Assembly: GCA_022826945.1 (NCBI GenBank)
Contig: JAJDTY010000073.1
Span: 186,001 to 250,000, forward strand
DNA: 64,000 nt
From: Candidatus Binatia bacterium
GTDB taxonomy: Bacteria > Desulfobacterota > Binatia > Bin18
Reading direction: 5' to 3'
A program made the position numbers and the translations under genes. This document shows positions 1,200-50,546 of the stretch, piece after piece (the first letter of the stretch is position 1; each line of letters begins with the position of its first letter). Under the pieces are notes generated by a model, which was given only the letters and a program-made list of their open reading frames with translations, was not told the origin of the DNA and searched no databases.

Positions 1200-2353
1200 G
1201 AGTCTTTAATATGGTGCTGTTTGGCTGGCCGCATCTGCCCGACGATGCTCCCGTTGGGACGCCCGGATCGTATCCACTGTCGAACAGGTATTTTGATCCT
1301 GTCCAAGGAAACGCCCTGCTGCAACAAGAGTTGGACCGGATCACGCTCAGTGATGAGCTTGGGTTGGACGGCTTTACCTGTCAGGAGCATCATGGCGGCG
1401 GCGGATTTTGTGCCATGGTACCCTCGACCCACCTCATGGCGGCCGCCGTCTCACAACGCACGCAACAGCTTCACGTGGCGGTCACCGGCACGTGCATTCC
1501 GTTACACCACCCGCTGGCCATTGCGGAAGAGGTCGCCATGCTGGACCACCTGAGTAATGGACGTTTCATCTGGGGGGCGCTACGCGGCTTTCCGACCGAA
1601 TACCTGTCCTACAACGTCAACCCGGCGGAATCCCAGGCCCGGTTTCGGGAAGGGTTTTCCTTGGTCCTGAAAGCCCTTTCGAGTGAGGGGCCGTTTGATT
1701 TTGACGGCCAGTTTTACCGCGTCCGGGACTACAACATCTGGCCCAAGCCCCTGCAGCAGCCCTATCCGAAAATCTGGATGGCGGCCAACAGCCTGGACTC
1801 GCTCGATTTTGCGGTCAAGAATCGCACCTATATTGCCACGCCGTGGGTCAGTATTGAGCGCACGCGCGCGGTGCACGAGACGTATTATCGGCTGGCTCAC
1901 GAGCAAAGCATCCCCGTCCCCGAGGATTTTGATGACATGTTTGCCTCGATCTGTGCCTTATACGTGGGCGAGAGCGATAAGAAGGCCCGCCAGGAGGCCG
2001 AGGCGCACTTGGAATACCATTTCTTCCGCGCGCTGGCGTCGTTTGATATCGGCACCGTCTCGCTTATCCCCGGACATATGAGCGTCAACGGCATGCGCGA
2101 TTGGCTAAAGAACGTCACCAGCAAAGACACGGGTCAGGCCATGGGCTATAGCGTCGATGAGGGCATTGAGAATGGGACGGTCATTTTGGGTGGACCGGAA
2201 AGCGTGATCGCTCAAATCAAACGCCAACGCGAAGAGGGCAAACGCGGCACCCTCCTGGCGATGTTTCAGTTTGGTTCCCTGCCGGATGCACTCGCGACGC
2301 AGAGCCTGCGGCTCTTTGCCCAAGAGGTATTGCCCCAGATCCGCGCCATTTGA
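1196..2353 (+). CDS. LLM-class flavin-dependent monooxygenase
   Basis: A 385-residue luciferase-like TIM-barrel oxidoreductase. Features typical of the two-component FMN luciferase family include the CQEHHG motif near residues 60-67, AIAEEVAMLDHLSNGR in the middle and a C-terminal block that matches a substrate-channel filter (GGPESVIAQI). Such enzymes insert oxygen using reduced flavin supplied by a separate reductase; none is encoded nearby. The ATG at 1196 has a GGAGGGAGGAG ribosome site and overlaps the previous stop codon. It is paralogous to the gene at 3866 and, like it, is paired with an alpha/beta hydrolase, which suggests oxygenation followed by hydrolysis. Substrate is not predictable. 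Confidence 0.87.
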   Translation: MRVFNMVLFGWPHLPDDAPVGTPGSYPLSNRYFDPVQGNALLQQELDRITLSDELGLDGFTCQEHHGGGGFCAMVPSTHLMAAAVSQRTQQLHVAVTGTCIPLHHPLAIAEEVAMLDHLSNGRFIWGALRGFPTEYLSYNVNPAESQARFREGFSLVLKALSSEGPFDFDGQFYRVRDYNIWPKPLQQPYPKIWMAANSLDSLDFAVKNRTYIATPWVSIERTRAVHETYYRLAHEQSIPVPEDFDDMFASICALYVGESDKKARQEAEAHLEYHFFRALASFDIGTVSLIPGHMSVNGMRDWLKNVTSKDTGQAMGYSVDEGIENGTVILGGPESVIAQIKRQREEGKRGTLLAMFQFGSLPDALATQSLRLFAQEVLPQIRAI

Positions 2354-2404
2354 GGCGGCGACCGCCCTGGACGGATAGGCGACCGGGCCTCTATACGTAG
2401 CGGC

Positions 2405-3688
2405 ATGGCAGGCCAAGGCGACGGACGTGGCGATGGGGCGCCTGCGTTTTTTTATGGCTGGTGGATTGTCGTGACATGCTTTGTCAGCATGTCGATGGCC
2501 GGTGGTGTCGGTAATCTGTCCTTCCCCGTCTTTCTCAAACCCTTGACCGCAGAGTTCGGCTGGACCCGGGCTCAGGTATCCGGCGGGATTTCAGCCTTTA
2601 TGTTGGCCATTACCTTCACCGCCCCTTTTGTCGGGCGAGCGGTAAGCCTGTATGGACCGCGGGCGGTCATGATCCCGGCGGCCGTCTTGGTGGGTCTGTG
2701 CCTGATGCTGCTGTCCCAGATGACGGCCCTGTGGCAACTCTATCTGCTGCGTCTCGGAGTGGGGGTTGGGTTTACGGCTCTGGCCCATGTGCCGGTCAAT
2801 ATCGTTATTTCGCGCTGGTTTACGCGCAAGCGCGGTCGGGCCATGGGCACGGCCATGATCGGCGCTCCGGTGGGCGGCCTACTGATGACGCCCTTTGCCT
2901 CGTCTTGTATCGAGTGGGTCGACTGGCGTCTCACCTTGTTGATCCTGGGCGGGCTGCTGTGGCTTATCCTGGTGCCGGTGTTGTTTGGGCTGCTGCGCGA
3001 TACGCCGGCTGACCTGGGTCTACTGCCGGACGGCGAGGCGAGACGAACCATGGACGACCCGCCACCCAATGGTGGCGTCGGAGAGGGGATATCCGCCCGC
3101 GAGACGCTCTGGACCGGCCGTTTCTGGGCCCTCATCGGGATTTATTTTCTGGCCTATGGCTGCCTCTTTTCCGTGATGATTCATCAGCATCCCTATTTTA
3201 CGGATCAAGGCTTTTCCGCCCAGCACGCGGCCCTGCTGGTGAGCGGGCTGCTCAGCGCGTCCGTGCTCAGCGGCCTGGGTTTTGGCTGGGCGAGTGAGCG
3301 CTATGATCCGATGCAACTGGCGGCGACCTGTTACGCCCTGGGCGGGATCGGCATAGCCCTGCTCTTATGGGCTTCTCCCGTCGTGGCTGTGGTCGGCTTT
3401 GTGGTCTGCTTCGGCTTCTTCTTTGGTGGCACCACTCCGCTGACCGCGCTCGTGACCGGGCGCATGTTCGGCATGAAAGCGCACGGCGTGATCTACGGCT
3501 TCTATCAGACCGTTATCTGTTTGAGCGGTTTCGTCGGCCCGACGGTGATGGGCTTTCTCTATGACACGACCGGCAGCTATCAACTCGGGTTCAGCGGCGT
3601 GGGTATCGGTCTGCTGTGCGCTGCCGCGTTGATGCTGGTTGTGCGGGCGAGAACCAGGCTTCTGCCCGTGTCTGGTGCGTCCACCTGA
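2405..3688 (+). CDS. MFS transporter (12 TM)
   Basis: A 427-residue Major Facilitator Superfamily permease with about twelve hydrophobic segments. It opens with AFFYGWWIVV, the N-terminal signature of the MFS branch that includes oxalate/formate antiporter-like and monocarboxylate porters. The loop between TM2 and TM3 and the central cytoplasmic loop (around residues 205-230, charged and Pro/Gly-rich) fit the fold. It lies between the two monooxygenase/hydrolase pairs, so it probably imports their substrate or exports a product. The ATG at 2405 has no strong ribosome site; a slightly later start is possible. The final residues are basic. Confidence 0.88.
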   Translation: MAGQGDGRGDGAPAFFYGWWIVVTCFVSMSMAGGVGNLSFPVFLKPLTAEFGWTRAQVSGGISAFMLAITFTAPFVGRAVSLYGPRAVMIPAAVLVGLCLMLLSQMTALWQLYLLRLGVGVGFTALAHVPVNIVISRWFTRKRGRAMGTAMIGAPVGGLLMTPFASSCIEWVDWRLTLLILGGLLWLILVPVLFGLLRDTPADLGLLPDGEARRTMDDPPPNGGVGEGISARETLWTGRFWALIGIYFLAYGCLFSVMIHQHPYFTDQGFSAQHAALLVSGLLSASVLSGLGFGWASERYDPMQLAATCYALGGIGIALLLWASPVVAVVGFVVCFGFFFGGTTPLTALVTGRMFGMKAHGVIYGFYQTVICLSGFVGPTVMGFLYDTTGSYQLGFSGVGIGLLCAAALMLVVRARTRLLPVSGAST

Positions 3689-29013: not shown

Positions 29014-29415
29014 TTATGACTTGTCTGGTTTTTCCACGGGCAGACCGGCCTCGGCCCAGCCGTTAAAGCCGACTTCCAGATGCGCAATATCGGGAAAACC
29101 CATATCTTGTAAAGCATCGGCAGCCAGCGCGGACCGGCCTCCCGCGGCGCAGTACACGACAATGCGTTTTTCGGGATCAACCTTTCCGGTGCAATACTGG
29201 GAGGACGGATCGAGCCAGAATTCCAGCATGCCGCGTGGTACATGCATGGCGCTCGGAATCCAGCCCAGCTTTTGCCGTTCACGCACATCTCGAATGTCAA
29301 GAAGCTGCGTCTCTCCGGACTCCAATTCTTGTTGTAACTGTCCCACGGACAGGTTCTCAATACGCGTCTTTGCCTCCTCCACCATCTGCTCCGCCGTTTT
29401 CTTGAGTTTAAACAT
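29014..29415 (-). CDS. Rhodanese-domain protein
   Basis: A 133-residue single-domain rhodanese. The helix-rich N-terminus leads into LLDIRDVRERQKLGWIPSAMHV, and the active-site loop is YCAAGGRS with Cys89. It likely carries persulfide sulfur. ATG 29415 has an AAAGGACC ribosome site; a longer upstream frame overlaps the mobile element at 29461 and is rejected. First gene of the minus-strand operon with the K+ channel, DUF2170, PspA and DUF4178. Confidence 0.88.
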   Translation of the reverse strand: MFKLKKTAEQMVEEAKTRIENLSVGQLQQELESGETQLLDIRDVRERQKLGWIPSAMHVPRGMLEFWLDPSSQYCTGKVDPEKRIVVYCAAGGRSALAADALQDMGFPDIAHLEVGFNGWAEAGLPVEKPDKS

Positions 29416-29460
29416 ACTGGTCCTTTCTGCTGCATCATCCGTTGCAATGCTAGAAGGTTT

Positions 29461-29864
29461 GGAAATTATAGCACGAAGGCACACGCACTACCGTTCTCGG
29501 CACCTGAAGTACCGCACGGGATATTCCCACCCGTGGGAGGACTCACAACCAGTCCTTGGTTCAAGATATTCAGCGCCGCATTCCAGTCCCGGTCAATGGA
29601 TAACCCACAGGCCGGACACATATGCGACTGATCGGATAGGGTTTTTGTCACTCGTTCCCCACATCGGCTACAGTCTTGCGACGTATGTTTCGGATCAACC
29701 TTTCGCACCCACCCACCAGCACTTGCAGCCTTATACAGCGAACGTTGCTGTTCGAGAAATGCCGTGAGCCGCGTATGAACAGCAGCACGCAGTTTTGCCG
29801 TGTAGGTGTACGTGCGATACATCTGACCTAACCCTACACCCTGTTACTTTGCACTATAATTCCC
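29461..29864 (-). mobile_element. TIR-bounded miniature element A with tnpB remnant
   Basis: A 404-bp element. The left end reads GGAAATTATAGC and the right end CTATAATTCCC, which form imperfect terminal inverted repeats of about 22 bp. It is flanked by GAAGGTTT (29453-29460) and AAAGGTTT (29865-29872), a probable 8-bp target duplication with one change. The interior carries the first residues and the zinc-ribbon C-terminus of a TnpB-like protein on the minus strand. A second, shorter copy lies at 50105-50367. Confidence 0.75.
29466..29822 (-). pseudogene. TnpB-like protein with internal deletion
   Basis: A 118-codon frame. The first 10-15 residues (YRTYTYTAKLR) fit a tnpB N-terminus. It then jumps to the C-terminal part: YKAASAGGWVRKVDPKHTSQ, the zinc ribbon CSRCG...CPACG and RDWNAALNIL. 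A complete TnpB has about 370-400 residues, so the RuvC and helical domains are missing. It lies within the TIR element A and ends a few bases from its left TIR. It may be translated, but cannot be a nuclease. Confidence 0.7.
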
Positions 29865-29942
29865 AAAGGTTTCCTCAAGAACAGCTACTCCGCGTTGTTA
29901 TGGATCGAAGCTTACATCTGCCTTCGTGGACAGCAGGCCTGC

Positions 29943-47768: not shown

Positions 47769-50054
47769 CTACGCATCGCTCTTGAACGCGCTGTTTTTTT
47801 CTCGCAGGGCCGCGTACACCTTTTCTGCGGTTACGGGCAAATCCATCAGACGAACCCCCACCGCATCAAAGACGGCGTTTGCCACCGCGGCCGGCACCGC
47901 CACATTGCTATGCTCGCCAATGGCCTTGCCGGCGTAGGGTGCGGGGCCGGCGTCGCTTTCGACCAGGACGGTTTTCAGCTCCGGAATATCCATGCTGGTC
48001 GGCAGTTTATAGTCGCCCAGATGGACATTCGTCACGGCTCCGTCCTGCACGATAAGATGTTCGGTCAGCGCGTGGCCGACCCCTTGGACCGCCCCGCCTT
48101 CAACTTGTCCCTGGTGGGTGAGCGGATTGAGAACCGTGCCAACATCGTGCGCGGTCGTGAGTTTCTGCAGGGTCACCTGGCCGGTTGCCGGGTCAACTGC
48201 GACTTCCGCGATTTGCGCGCAGAACGAGGTTACATCCATGGGGTCTTCCGCTACATATTCTCCAGTATAGCGTAACGGCAGCTCTTCCCGGTCGACGAGT
48301 GCGGCCATTAGCGTGGGAAGGGCAAGACGCTGTCCGTTCGTATTCACAAACTCACCCGCCCGATATGTAACCTGCTCCGGCGGAGTTTCCATATGACGCG
48401 CGGCAAAGGCGGTGAGCCCTTCCTGTAGCTTTTGAACAGCGGCAAGGGTCGCCTGACCGGCCATATGCGTCAGACGACTTCCCCCGGCGCCCACTTCCCA
48501 AGGAGCGGAGTCGGTACTCCCCTGCACGACCCTGACGGATGCCAAAGGGACCTGTAATTCTTCAGCCACGACCTGCTGGAGAACCGTATACGAGCCGGTA
48601 CCGGTATCGGCCGCGCCCGTCATGAGGGTCAGCGTCGTGTCGGCCGCGATACTCAAGGTTGCGCTCGATGGTCCAAACGCCCCCGGCTCGCGGTCGTACA
48701 TGCCTATGCCGCGCCCAACATGAGCCGCCTTTTCGGTGTTCCACTTCGCTTCCTTGGCCGCCGCCTCCAGCGTCTCTTTACAGCGAATTTTCTTCCACTT
48801 TTCACCCAGCGGGGCGGCGTCGCCTTCGATGAGCGTATTGCGAAGCCGAAACTCCAAAGGGTCAAGCCCCAGTTCCTGGGCAATCAGGTCCATATGACTC
48901 TCAACCCCAAAAACGATCTGGGGTGCACCCGGTGCGCGCATATGCCCGGCGGGCACGGTGTTGGTGTAGACCCGGAAGACTTCAATCTCGACATTGGGCA
49001 TACGATACGGACCGGCGGCATGAACACTGCCGTGCACGGTATGCAGGGGCGTGAAGGCGCTATAGGCCCCACAGCTAAAGACCAGCCTGGCCTTACGAGC
49101 AACAATCCGGCCGTCGGCGTCTACGCCGGTCCGGAGCGTAATGACTGCCGGATGACGCGGATTGCCGGCTGACAGCTCTTCGGTATAGCTCATGACCATT
49201 TTGACCGGTCGGCCTGAAGCTGCGGCCAAGTGGTAGCACACGACACTATCCATCAATGAACCCTTGCCCCCAAAATCCCCGCCAATGGGCGCGGTGTTGA
49301 CGCACACGCGATCCTCGGTCACGCCGAGCGCAGCCGCAAACTGAGCCCGGGCCACAAAGGGGGTCTTATTGGAAATCCACAGATTGACTTTGCCGTCCGG
49401 CTCAATCTGGACGACACTGGCGTGCGGCTCAATATAGCCCTGATGAACCGGAGGAATGGTAAATGTATGGGTAAACTCGCGAGCGGCCTGGGCAAAGCCG
49501 GTTTCGACATCACCGTGAGTGTAGAATACCTGTGACACCACGTTGGGAATGTCCGGGTAGAGGCGGTCGTCACCCGGATGAACAAAATCGGGCACGGGAG
49601 GATGGGTGTATGTACTCGTGTCGGCATGGACGCGCGGTGCATCTTCCCGCATGGCCTCGACCGGGTCAAAGACCGCGGGCAGGGCTTCATACTCGACCGC
49701 TATGCGGGTGAGGGCTTCCTCGGCAATATCCATGGACTCAGCCGCCACCGCGACCACCTTCTCGCCCACAAAACGGACCACATCACGGGCGAGGACGGGC
49801 TTGTCCAAAAAGAAACGACCGATACGGCGGTCCGGCAACTCCGCGCCGGTAATAACCGCGTGGACACCGGCCAGCGCTTTTGCCTGCGAGGTATCAATCG
49901 AGAGAATGCGCGCGTGGGGAAACGGGCTGCGCAGGCATTTGCCGTACAGCAAACCGGGCAGCCGAATATCTGCGGTATAGCGGGCTTGTCCGGTTACTTT
50001 TGACGGCCCTTCTACATGGCCCGCCGGTTGCCCAACGCTGGCTAAACTCGCCAT
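47769..50054 (-). CDS. Molybdopterin-binding large subunit of a xanthine-dehydrogenase-family hydroxylase
   Basis: A 761-residue subunit. The Moco region has IGGDFGGKG, the substrate loop VPAGHMRAPGAPQ and the catalytic Glu in the GKAIGEHSN motif near the C-terminus. The loop is not the AYXCSFR form of aerobic CO dehydrogenase, so the enzyme oxidises another substrate (an aldehyde, purine, pyridine or aromatic acyl-CoA). Start is ATG 50054 with a GTGGAGG ribosome site rather than the GTG at 50066. First gene of a 4-gene operon. The element at 50105 is inserted just upstream. Confidence 0.9.
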   Translation of the reverse strand: MASLASVGQPAGHVEGPSKVTGQARYTADIRLPGLLYGKCLRSPFPHARILSIDTSQAKALAGVHAVITGAELPDRRIGRFFLDKPVLARDVVRFVGEKVVAVAAESMDIAEEALTRIAVEYEALPAVFDPVEAMREDAPRVHADTSTYTHPPVPDFVHPGDDRLYPDIPNVVSQVFYTHGDVETGFAQAAREFTHTFTIPPVHQGYIEPHASVVQIEPDGKVNLWISNKTPFVARAQFAAALGVTEDRVCVNTAPIGGDFGGKGSLMDSVVCYHLAAASGRPVKMVMSYTEELSAGNPRHPAVITLRTGVDADGRIVARKARLVFSCGAYSAFTPLHTVHGSVHAAGPYRMPNVEIEVFRVYTNTVPAGHMRAPGAPQIVFGVESHMDLIAQELGLDPLEFRLRNTLIEGDAAPLGEKWKKIRCKETLEAAAKEAKWNTEKAAHVGRGIGMYDREPGAFGPSSATLSIAADTTLTLMTGAADTGTGSYTVLQQVVAEELQVPLASVRVVQGSTDSAPWEVGAGGSRLTHMAGQATLAAVQKLQEGLTAFAARHMETPPEQVTYRAGEFVNTNGQRLALPTLMAALVDREELPLRYTGEYVAEDPMDVTSFCAQIAEVAVDPATGQVTLQKLTTAHDVGTVLNPLTHQGQVEGGAVQGVGHALTEHLIVQDGAVTNVHLGDYKLPTSMDIPELKTVLVESDAGPAPYAGKAIGEHSNVAVPAAVANAVFDAVGVRLMDLPVTAEKVYAALREKNSAFKSDA

Positions 50055-50104
50055 AATAACCTCCACAGTCAGACACGACCCAAAGTACGGATATCGTCAT
50101 GAAT

Positions 50105-50367
50105 GGGAATTATAGCGAAAGGTAACAATCGCTACCGTTCTTGCCGTATATAGCGACACTCGGGGTATTCCCACCCGAGGGAGGACTGACAATTAGCCCC
50201 CGGTTTAGAATGTTCATCGCCGCATTCCAGTCCCGGTCTCTGGATAAGCCACAGGCCGGGCACCCATGGAGCCGGTCGTGCGTGGACACACGCAGCTTGG
50301 CGGTATACGTGAGGGCGCGATGCATCACCTAGCTCCATCGTACTTGTTACTTTTCGCTATAATTCCC
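50105..50367 (-). mobile_element. TIR-bounded miniature element B with tnpB remnant
   Basis: A 263-bp element. The left end (50105-50127) and right end (50345-50367) form a 23-bp terminal inverted repeat with a single mismatch (GGGAATTATAGCGAAA followed by A or G, then GTAACA). It is flanked by TCATGAAT at 50097-50104 and again at 50368-50375, an exact 8-bp target duplication. The interior is a shortened version of element A at 29461-29864, with the same tnpB 3' end. It inserted between the molybdenum hydroxylase operon and its likely upstream control region. Confidence 0.85.
50110..50328 (-). pseudogene. TnpB-like relic, shorter than in element A
   Basis: A 72-codon frame: MHRALTYTAKLR at the start, a jump, then CPACGLSRDRDWNAAMNILNRG and a tail similar to element A. 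The first CxxC pair of the zinc ribbon is lost as well as the nuclease domains. It is a separate deletion derivative, since the junction differs from element A. Not expected to have activity. Confidence 0.65.
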
Positions 50368-50546
50368 TCATGAATCCTTTTCGCAGTCAAGCGCCGTGGG
50401 TCAGATTGACCTGAAAGGCCGTAGGTCAGTATAGTTACGCTAGAGGGGAGAAAGAGGAAGCGTGTCCTTCCTCCACCAGCAGATGCGAGATACGGTTCCT
50501 CTTTAGTGTCAGGAGCGCCGCGTGCCTATGGGAGAGGGTGATTGGG
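50368..50546. other. Intergenic stretch after element B
   Basis: About 180 bases. It contains the right target duplication of element B (50368-50375) and a fourth hairpin repeat (50451-50504). No gene is seen. Confidence 0.5.
50451..50504. repeat. Long-hairpin repeat family H, copy 4 (diverged)
   Basis: AAAGAGGAAGCGT (50451-50463) pairs with ACGGTTCCTCTTT (50492-50504) with one mismatch. The interior retains GTGTCCT and CAGATGC, as in copy 3. It lies upstream of the small unknown gene at 50547. Confidence 0.5.

Follow-up and report, generated by a model that had tools for sequence, protein, structure and literature searches.

TnpB relics in inverted-repeat transposons of a Candidatus Binatia genome: a pairing known from eukaryotes and not found for bacteria in the literature searched

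Introduction

Can a bacterial tnpB gene travel inside a transposon that is bounded by terminal inverted repeats (TIRs) and moved by a DDE transposase? The question is raised by a locus in a stretch of 64,000 nucleotides (the window, by which we mean the whole stretch analysed) on contig C17 of a Candidatus Binatia genome (G000; 4.71 Mb, 86 contigs). TnpB is the ancestor of Cas12 and, to our knowledge, elements of the IS200/IS605 and IS607 types have no TIRs and make no target duplication. The IS1595 family is characterized by GGG ends, an 8-bp duplication and passenger genes, and mobile insertion cassettes and MITEs are TIR-bounded, transposase-free and mobilised in trans. Going by the portions of the source available to us, prokaryotic TnpB resides in IS200/605 and IS607 elements and Fanzors reside in DDE transposons with TIRs and target-site duplications, both of which are predicted to be part of the Fanzor guide-RNA scaffold (Yoon et al. 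2023, PMC10711439). Similarly partial sources name IS4-type elements with 8-bp duplications as carriers of Fanzor1 (Bao and Jurka 2013, PMC3627910), assign the TnpB elements of six species to IS605, IS607 and IS1341 (Wang et al. 2023, PMC9956272) and describe IS607 as having neither TIR nor target duplication (PMC6188088). In the literature searched, and within what these partly available sources cover, bacterial TnpB is reported from elements with a Y1 transposase (IS200/IS605) or a serine recombinase (IS607) and from lone IS1341, and only the eukaryotic Fanzors from DDE transposons that have terminal repeats and target duplications. No bacterial TnpB in a DDE element was found in that literature, which was searched at the level of titles and abstracts, with most subscription papers outside the search.

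Two insertions with 8-bp target duplications

The window holds two related elements, A and B, with the following features (window coordinates; ends of the A/B type are denoted GGGAATTATAGCGAAAGGTAACA / GGGAATTATAGC):

29461..29864, minus strand: element A, 404 bp, an internally deleted TIR-tnpB-TIR element
29453..29460, no strand: left target-site duplication of A, GAAGGTTT (direct reading; one copy in 6/6 empty sites)
29461..29483, plus strand: left TIR of A (tnpB 3' side), within which lie the stop codon of tnpB and the 3' arm of the final hairpin of the predicted guide RNA
29842..29864, minus strand: right TIR of A (tnpB 5' side), with the ATG at element nucleotide 43
29865..29872, no strand: right target-site duplication of A, AAAGGTTT (direct reading; empty sites)
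50105..50367, minus strand: element B, 263 bp, a second internally deleted TIR-tnpB-TIR element, with a short frame that has the zinc-ribbon end
50097..50104, no strand: left target-site duplication of B, TCATGAAT (empty sites)
50368..50375, no strand: right target-site duplication of B, TCATGAAT (empty sites)

The repeat arms of A (29458-29483 against 29842-29867) are imperfect, being complementary at 77% over 26 nt, and its flanking octamers are identical at 7/8 positions. The repeats of B are cleaner (24 nt with one difference) and its octamer is perfect on both flanks. By themselves, the 16/22 repeat and 7/8 octamer of A are weak evidence, since a free scan of 42 loci also gave pairs with 15-18/22 repeat matches and at most one octamer mismatch in six loci where no meaning is attached to them (L018, L021, a second pair in L051, L052, L053 and L054). 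The decisive proof comes from empty sites, which we searched for across the genus, using the flanks of A and of B as they would read with the element and one octamer removed. The A site is empty in all six sister genomes of the same genus, where the flanks are joined by a single octamer and the sequence runs straight through the junction; this octamer is exactly GAAGGTTT in two genomes and AAAGGTTT in two, and has one other base change in the remaining two. The B site is likewise empty in 6/6 sisters, with the octamer exact in five and changed at one position in the sixth. As both sites are empty in every sister, A and B are insertions with an 8-bp duplication that are seen in the own genome only. 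Element A is thus confirmed as a genuine transposed element with an imperfect TIR and an 8-bp duplication (7/8), and with it the imperfect inverted repeats and flanking octamers that the original prediction had placed at 29453-29872.

A and B share 76% identity over 160 bp, and a third, solo end (C) lies at about position 47260 of contig C75. No further copy beyond these three was found in the own genome, nor any autonomous copy with the A/B TIR within 3 mismatches.

Both elements retain the ends of a tnpB gene

The interior of A is occupied by one reading frame:

29466..29822, minus strand: tnpB relic of A, in-frame, in which some 33 residues of the N terminus run directly into the C-terminal zinc ribbon, with RuvC I and II missing

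This minus-strand frame of 118 aa matches the TnpB zinc ribbon (PF07282, E 1.6e-20). Its residues 1-33 align with the N terminus of intact TnpB, at a score that none of 500 shuffles reached, and the remainder aligns with the C terminus of intact TnpB from residue 317, so that about 280 residues are missing, including RuvC I and II. The suggestion that a tnpB start had been joined here to its zinc ribbon was therefore correct. The frame of B is shorter and agrees with that of A in its start region and in its zinc-ribbon end (PF07282, E 3.1e-6); its 20 N-terminal residues alone gave no significant match to TnpB (161/500 shuffles), being too few. In both elements the ATG stands at element nucleotide 43 and the stop codon lies within the opposite terminal repeat, and the internal deletions differ. 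Different deletions between identical ends imply that full-length TIR-tnpB-TIR ancestors existed. The RuvC I and II catalytic motifs are deleted in A and there is no room for them in B; with this part gone from both, the A and B copies are most likely dead as nucleases. Neither element has room for a Y1 transposase (TnpA) or contains a DDE transposase (PF12762 with PF12760), the tnpB relic being their only gene, and no full tnpB was found in the own genome.

The differences between A and B are distributed unevenly over the frame. In the zinc-ribbon half they fall 3/2/10 over the three codon positions, an excess at third positions (binomial 0.0085), and in the 19 N-terminal codons 6/4/11 (binomial 0.056), while from PPTGG to the end they fall 9/8/7 (binomial 0.74). 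We read this pattern as indicating that A and B diverged in large part while tnpB was still selected as a protein, and hence that the deletions are late. In our reading of the same counts, the last 78 nt, which have no codon-position bias, would not have been selected as protein.

A predicted guide RNA at the element tip

For the 3' end of A, a guide-RNA scaffold was predicted:

29461..29560, minus strand: predicted guide-RNA (omega/reRNA) scaffold of A, four hairpins reaching the element tip

Structure prediction gives A and B the same set of four hairpins at their 3' ends, and the terminal repeat supplies the 3' arm of the final one. An alignment of A, B and the solo end C has 27 pairs with 88.9% of cells paired, and five pairs are changed on both sides compared with 0-2 in slid controls; RNAalifold on this alignment returned nearly the same structure. 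The loss of codon bias and the five compensated pairs would fit a guide RNA, but the covariation rests on three sequences only and the single-sequence folds are unexceptional (z -0.4 to -1.5), C by itself folding differently. Neither A nor B came near the threshold for an Rfam match. We infer, from predicted structure, that the A/B 3' end is as expected of a TnpB guide RNA that ends at the transposon tip.

IS1595-type ends in related genomes

The TIR of B (24-25 nt) is found in three of the six sisters (G001, G004 and G005) and, with one change, in G003, with other cargo each time. Among the MAG records of these four genomes, three are named Candidatus Binatota or Binatia and one Desulfurellaceae. 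In G005 it bounds a cassette of 873 bp with ATTACAGC at both ends that encodes a 267-aa protein without Pfam match. Next to the end in G001 are an HNH protein, which scores below the Pfam cut-off, and a C5 cytosine methyltransferase (E 1.4e-53). A second element end was not found in G001, G003 or G004.

A class-wide search for the TIR allowing at most 3 mismatches gave 15 places in 10/148 genomes, compared with one for a reversed control pattern. In G130 both ends bound an element of 2814 bp (L051), with TIR GGGAATTATAGCGAATAGTCACA and CGAGCAGG on both sides, which encodes an IS1595 transposase (PF12762, E 6.1e-39, and PF12760) and a methyltransferase passenger, and whose TIR has 20/23 letters in common with the left end of B. 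In G132 (L052) both ends bound a complete element of 1783 bp with an IS1595 transposase and no duplication; used as a query, this transposase found relatives in 9/16 genomes of the family and at six places in the genome that carries A and B. Two of these places are complete IS1595 elements, L057 (TCCCAAGA) and L067 (AATTCAAA), which have GGGAATTATATA ends, perfect 8-bp duplications and both PF12762 and PF12760. The outer GGGAATTATA of A and B is thus common to complete IS1595 elements in the own genome and in another Binatota family. The TIRs of L057 and L067, however, match the A/B TIRs for about 10 nt at the outer end and no further, the inner part being different, and no transposase element in the own genome has a TIR matching A/B beyond about these first 10 nt, so the exact partner transposase is not identified.

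It had been predicted that the TIR and 8-bp design points to mobilisation by a DDE transposase, and this gains support from the empty sites together with complete IS1595-family elements that have the same outer ends and 8-bp duplications. As to the suggested search for a full-length relative with the same TIR and a transposase gene, IS1595 elements with like ends exist (L051, at 20/23 and with an 8-bp duplication), but a full-length TnpB parent with the A/B TIR was not found in the 148 genomes of the class. The set viral_contigs contained no match to this TIR. Two matches (L034 and L038, TATAGCGATAGGTCACA) were dropped as chance, the GGGAATTA part being absent, and a possible IS1595 zinc-ribbon remnant to the right of the G001 element was left unused, having no Pfam match.

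Several minor observations concern these loci. The HNH and C5 cytosine methyltransferase genes of G001 lie just inside the terminal repeat (L019, 7813-10426) and are likely a restriction-modification pair. A small protein of 51-61 aa that has a GRPGRP motif and no Pfam match adjoins the TIR in three sisters (L006, about 829-1014; L007, about 1555-1723; L012, about 1570-1725). The IS1595 element L057 (814-3552, contig C67 of the own genome) has as passengers a CsgG-family protein (PF03783) and a small, weakly Cas2-like protein (PF09827, below cut-off). In G004 another repeat pair (L018, 9430-10602; GGTAGTGTA, 18/22), flanked on each side by GAATAGAT, has an alpha/beta-hydrolase-like gene between its arms and is possibly another passenger cassette.

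TIR-bounded tnpB elements on plasmids

We found full-length tnpB genes between TIRs outside this class of bacteria. A first survey covered 25 tnpB loci, with repeats of at least 14/22 and an octamer duplication spanning the gene as the criterion. Two loci stood out, both on Bosea plasmids: L093 (Bosea sp. RAC05; 972-2330, repeat 18/22, CTTACAGC twice) and L125 (Bosea ANAM02; 961-2332, repeat 20/22, CTTTGTTA twice). The other 23 reached at most 15/22, and weak pairs of this level in control tnpB loci were treated as noise. Six further loci, picked for similarity to the Bosea TnpB, added L139 (Methylobacterium aquaticum; 1927-3164, repeat 18/22, GAAATGTC twice). In total 3/31 tnpB loci, a non-random sample, are TIR-tnpB elements with perfect 8-bp duplications, all of them on alphaproteobacterial plasmids.

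The full-length proteins of the two Bosea elements match PF01385, PF07282 and PF12323 and their tnpB looks intact; L139 is not counted as intact because its tnpB has an in-frame stop (read by eye; it looks decayed). When the flanks of the ANAM02 element are joined, a frame of 205 aa, which we take to be adenylate kinase-like, becomes whole again, and joining those of the RAC05 element gives no recognisable gene. The 3' ends of the Bosea elements close with a hairpin of which the terminal repeat is the 3' arm (z -6.3 in ANAM02, -2.6 in RAC05). The plasmid elements have another TIR (GGTTCTTCGTCATTC-type ends) than A and B. A search of plasmids gave no transposase that goes with it, and the transposase family behind these ends is unassigned. 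In viral_contigs there were five relatives of the A protein, of which four were re-scanned and the fifth (L091) has the same weak pair as L090, and no relative of the Bosea TnpB.

Origin of the elements and relation to known systems

We consider it probable that A and B derive, by internal deletion, from a transposon with IS1595-type TIRs that carried tnpB and an overlapping guide RNA, that they are non-autonomous and were mobilised in trans by an IS1595-family transposase, and that the ancestral TnpB was a guided nuclease. The insertions with their 8-bp duplications, the tnpB ends, the architecture common to A and B and the IS1595 elements with like ends are observed. In the full-length ancestor, which is inferred, tnpB and the guide RNA would have filled the space between the TIRs. 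An IS1595-family DDE transposase acting in trans would have inserted A and B and made the duplications; its action in trans is an inference, and its family is inferred from the ends and the duplication length. The ancestral TnpB is inferred to have been an RNA-guided nuclease. Its guide RNA would have extended across the 3' end of tnpB and the TIR, with the guide itself supplied by the DNA next to the element. Such a nuclease could have cut the emptied donor site and so helped to retain the element, a role that has already been proposed for TnpB and that is here only inferred. In A and B the TIRs are left, together with the guide-RNA-like 3' end and a small frame for the zinc ribbon.

An alternative is that an ordinary tnpB of the IS200/IS605 or IS1341 type inserted by chance into an IS1595-type MITE and later decayed, TIR and tnpB being functionally unlinked. 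The cassettes with the A/B TIR carry varied and unrelated cargo, which makes the capture of any gene plausible, and the own genome lacks a full tnpB. We nevertheless regard this as unlikely, though not negligible, given that the ends of two elements with 76% identity over 160 bp coincide exactly (the ATG being at nucleotide 43 and the stop in the TIR), that the tnpB 3' end and the TIR pair in one covarying hairpin (predicted, from three sequences), and that full-length TIR-tnpB-TIR elements exist on plasmids. It is also improbable, in our view, that the mobility of the TIR elements depends on a DDE transposase outside IS1595 that likewise makes 8-bp duplications, as those of the ISL3 and IS256 types do. 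The missing inner-TIR match among transposase elements of the own genome and the clearly different TIR of the plasmid elements would fit such a transposase; against it stand the 20/23 TIR letters and equal duplication length that the IS1595 element L051 has in common with B, and the outer 10 nt that A and B share with the two IS1595 elements of their own genome. Chance inverted repeats around an ordinary tnpB remnant, to which the near-chance repeat and octamer of A alone would lend some colour, are refuted by 12/12 empty sites (A and B together) that end exactly at the repeats, and an ordinary IS200/IS605 relic is ruled out by the TIR and target duplication.

A and B share features with several known systems. 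With IS1595 they have in common GGG ends, the 8-bp duplication (also seen in L051, L057 and L067), the lineage-type TIR, passenger genes and complete IS1595 elements in the same genome. In contrast to IS1595, they lack a transposase, their passenger is tnpB and no matching autonomous TIR was found in their own genome; holding only a tnpB relic and no DDE transposase, they are at most a non-autonomous IS1595 derivative, not an IS1595 element. The TnpB zinc ribbon and the predicted guide-RNA-like 3' end at the element tip recall IS200/IS605, IS607 and IS1341, within what the partial sources on these describe, and among the hallmarks of TnpB itself the C-terminal zinc ribbon is present and RuvC I and II are not. 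Unlike IS200/IS605 and IS607 elements, however, A and B have a TIR and a target duplication, and no Y1 TnpA lies within them. Like mobile insertion cassettes and MITEs they are TIR-bounded, without transposase and probably moved in trans, but their cargo is an RNA-guided nuclease gene with a guide RNA predicted to reach into the TIR.

The closest parallel, as far as the accessible parts of the sources go, are Fanzor1 / Fanzor2* in eukaryotic TIR-TSD transposons, where a TnpB-family nuclease gene likewise lies within the TIR and duplication of a DDE-type element and the TIR is in the predicted guide-RNA scaffold. Judged against the same sources, A and B differ from Fanzors in being bacterial, with an ordinary bacterial-type TnpB, IS1595-type ends and the state of deleted relics; a eukaryotic or viral host and a Fanzor-type protein are both lacking, the relatives being Candidatus Binatota MAGs and the protein matching a TnpB-type domain. 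The available evidence supports the pairing of TnpB relics with inverted-repeat transposons as one known from eukaryotes and not found for bacteria in the literature searched. The suggestion that this may be a previously unseen TnpB-carrying family is supported within the literature searched, in which none was found described, and TIR-tnpB-TIR elements do exist elsewhere. It is limited by the loss of RuvC from A and B, by the absence of a transposase from both, and by the failure to find a full-length parent with their TIR.

We hypothesise, tentatively and with somewhat more doubt than confidence, a bacterial equivalent of the Fanzor transposons, in which tnpB moved from elements of the Y1 and serine-recombinase kinds into DDE elements on two or more occasions (with IS1595-type ends in Binatota and with GGTTCTTCGTCATTC-type ends on alphaproteobacterial plasmids), the TIR serves as the last guide-RNA hairpin, the guide is read from the target site, and the miniature copies may still make guides for a TnpB in trans. 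If true, partnership with DDE transposases would be no eukaryotic invention. The 8-bp duplication raises the question of whether it is part of the guide or of the scaffold, and these small, tractable elements would allow tests of the part that an RNA-guided nuclease plays in the life of a DDE transposon.

Surroundings of the two insertions

A and B each lie about 40 bp upstream of the start of a minus-strand gene and in the same orientation (29415-29460 and 50054-50104), the downstream genes being presumably rhodanese-like for A and molybdenum-hydroxylase-like for B. An outward TATAAT lies inside the terminal repeat, and the insertions might affect the expression of the adjoining genes. Close to B, at about 50450-50504 of the window, is a dispersed repeat of about 55 bp that has copies in all seven genomes of the genus.
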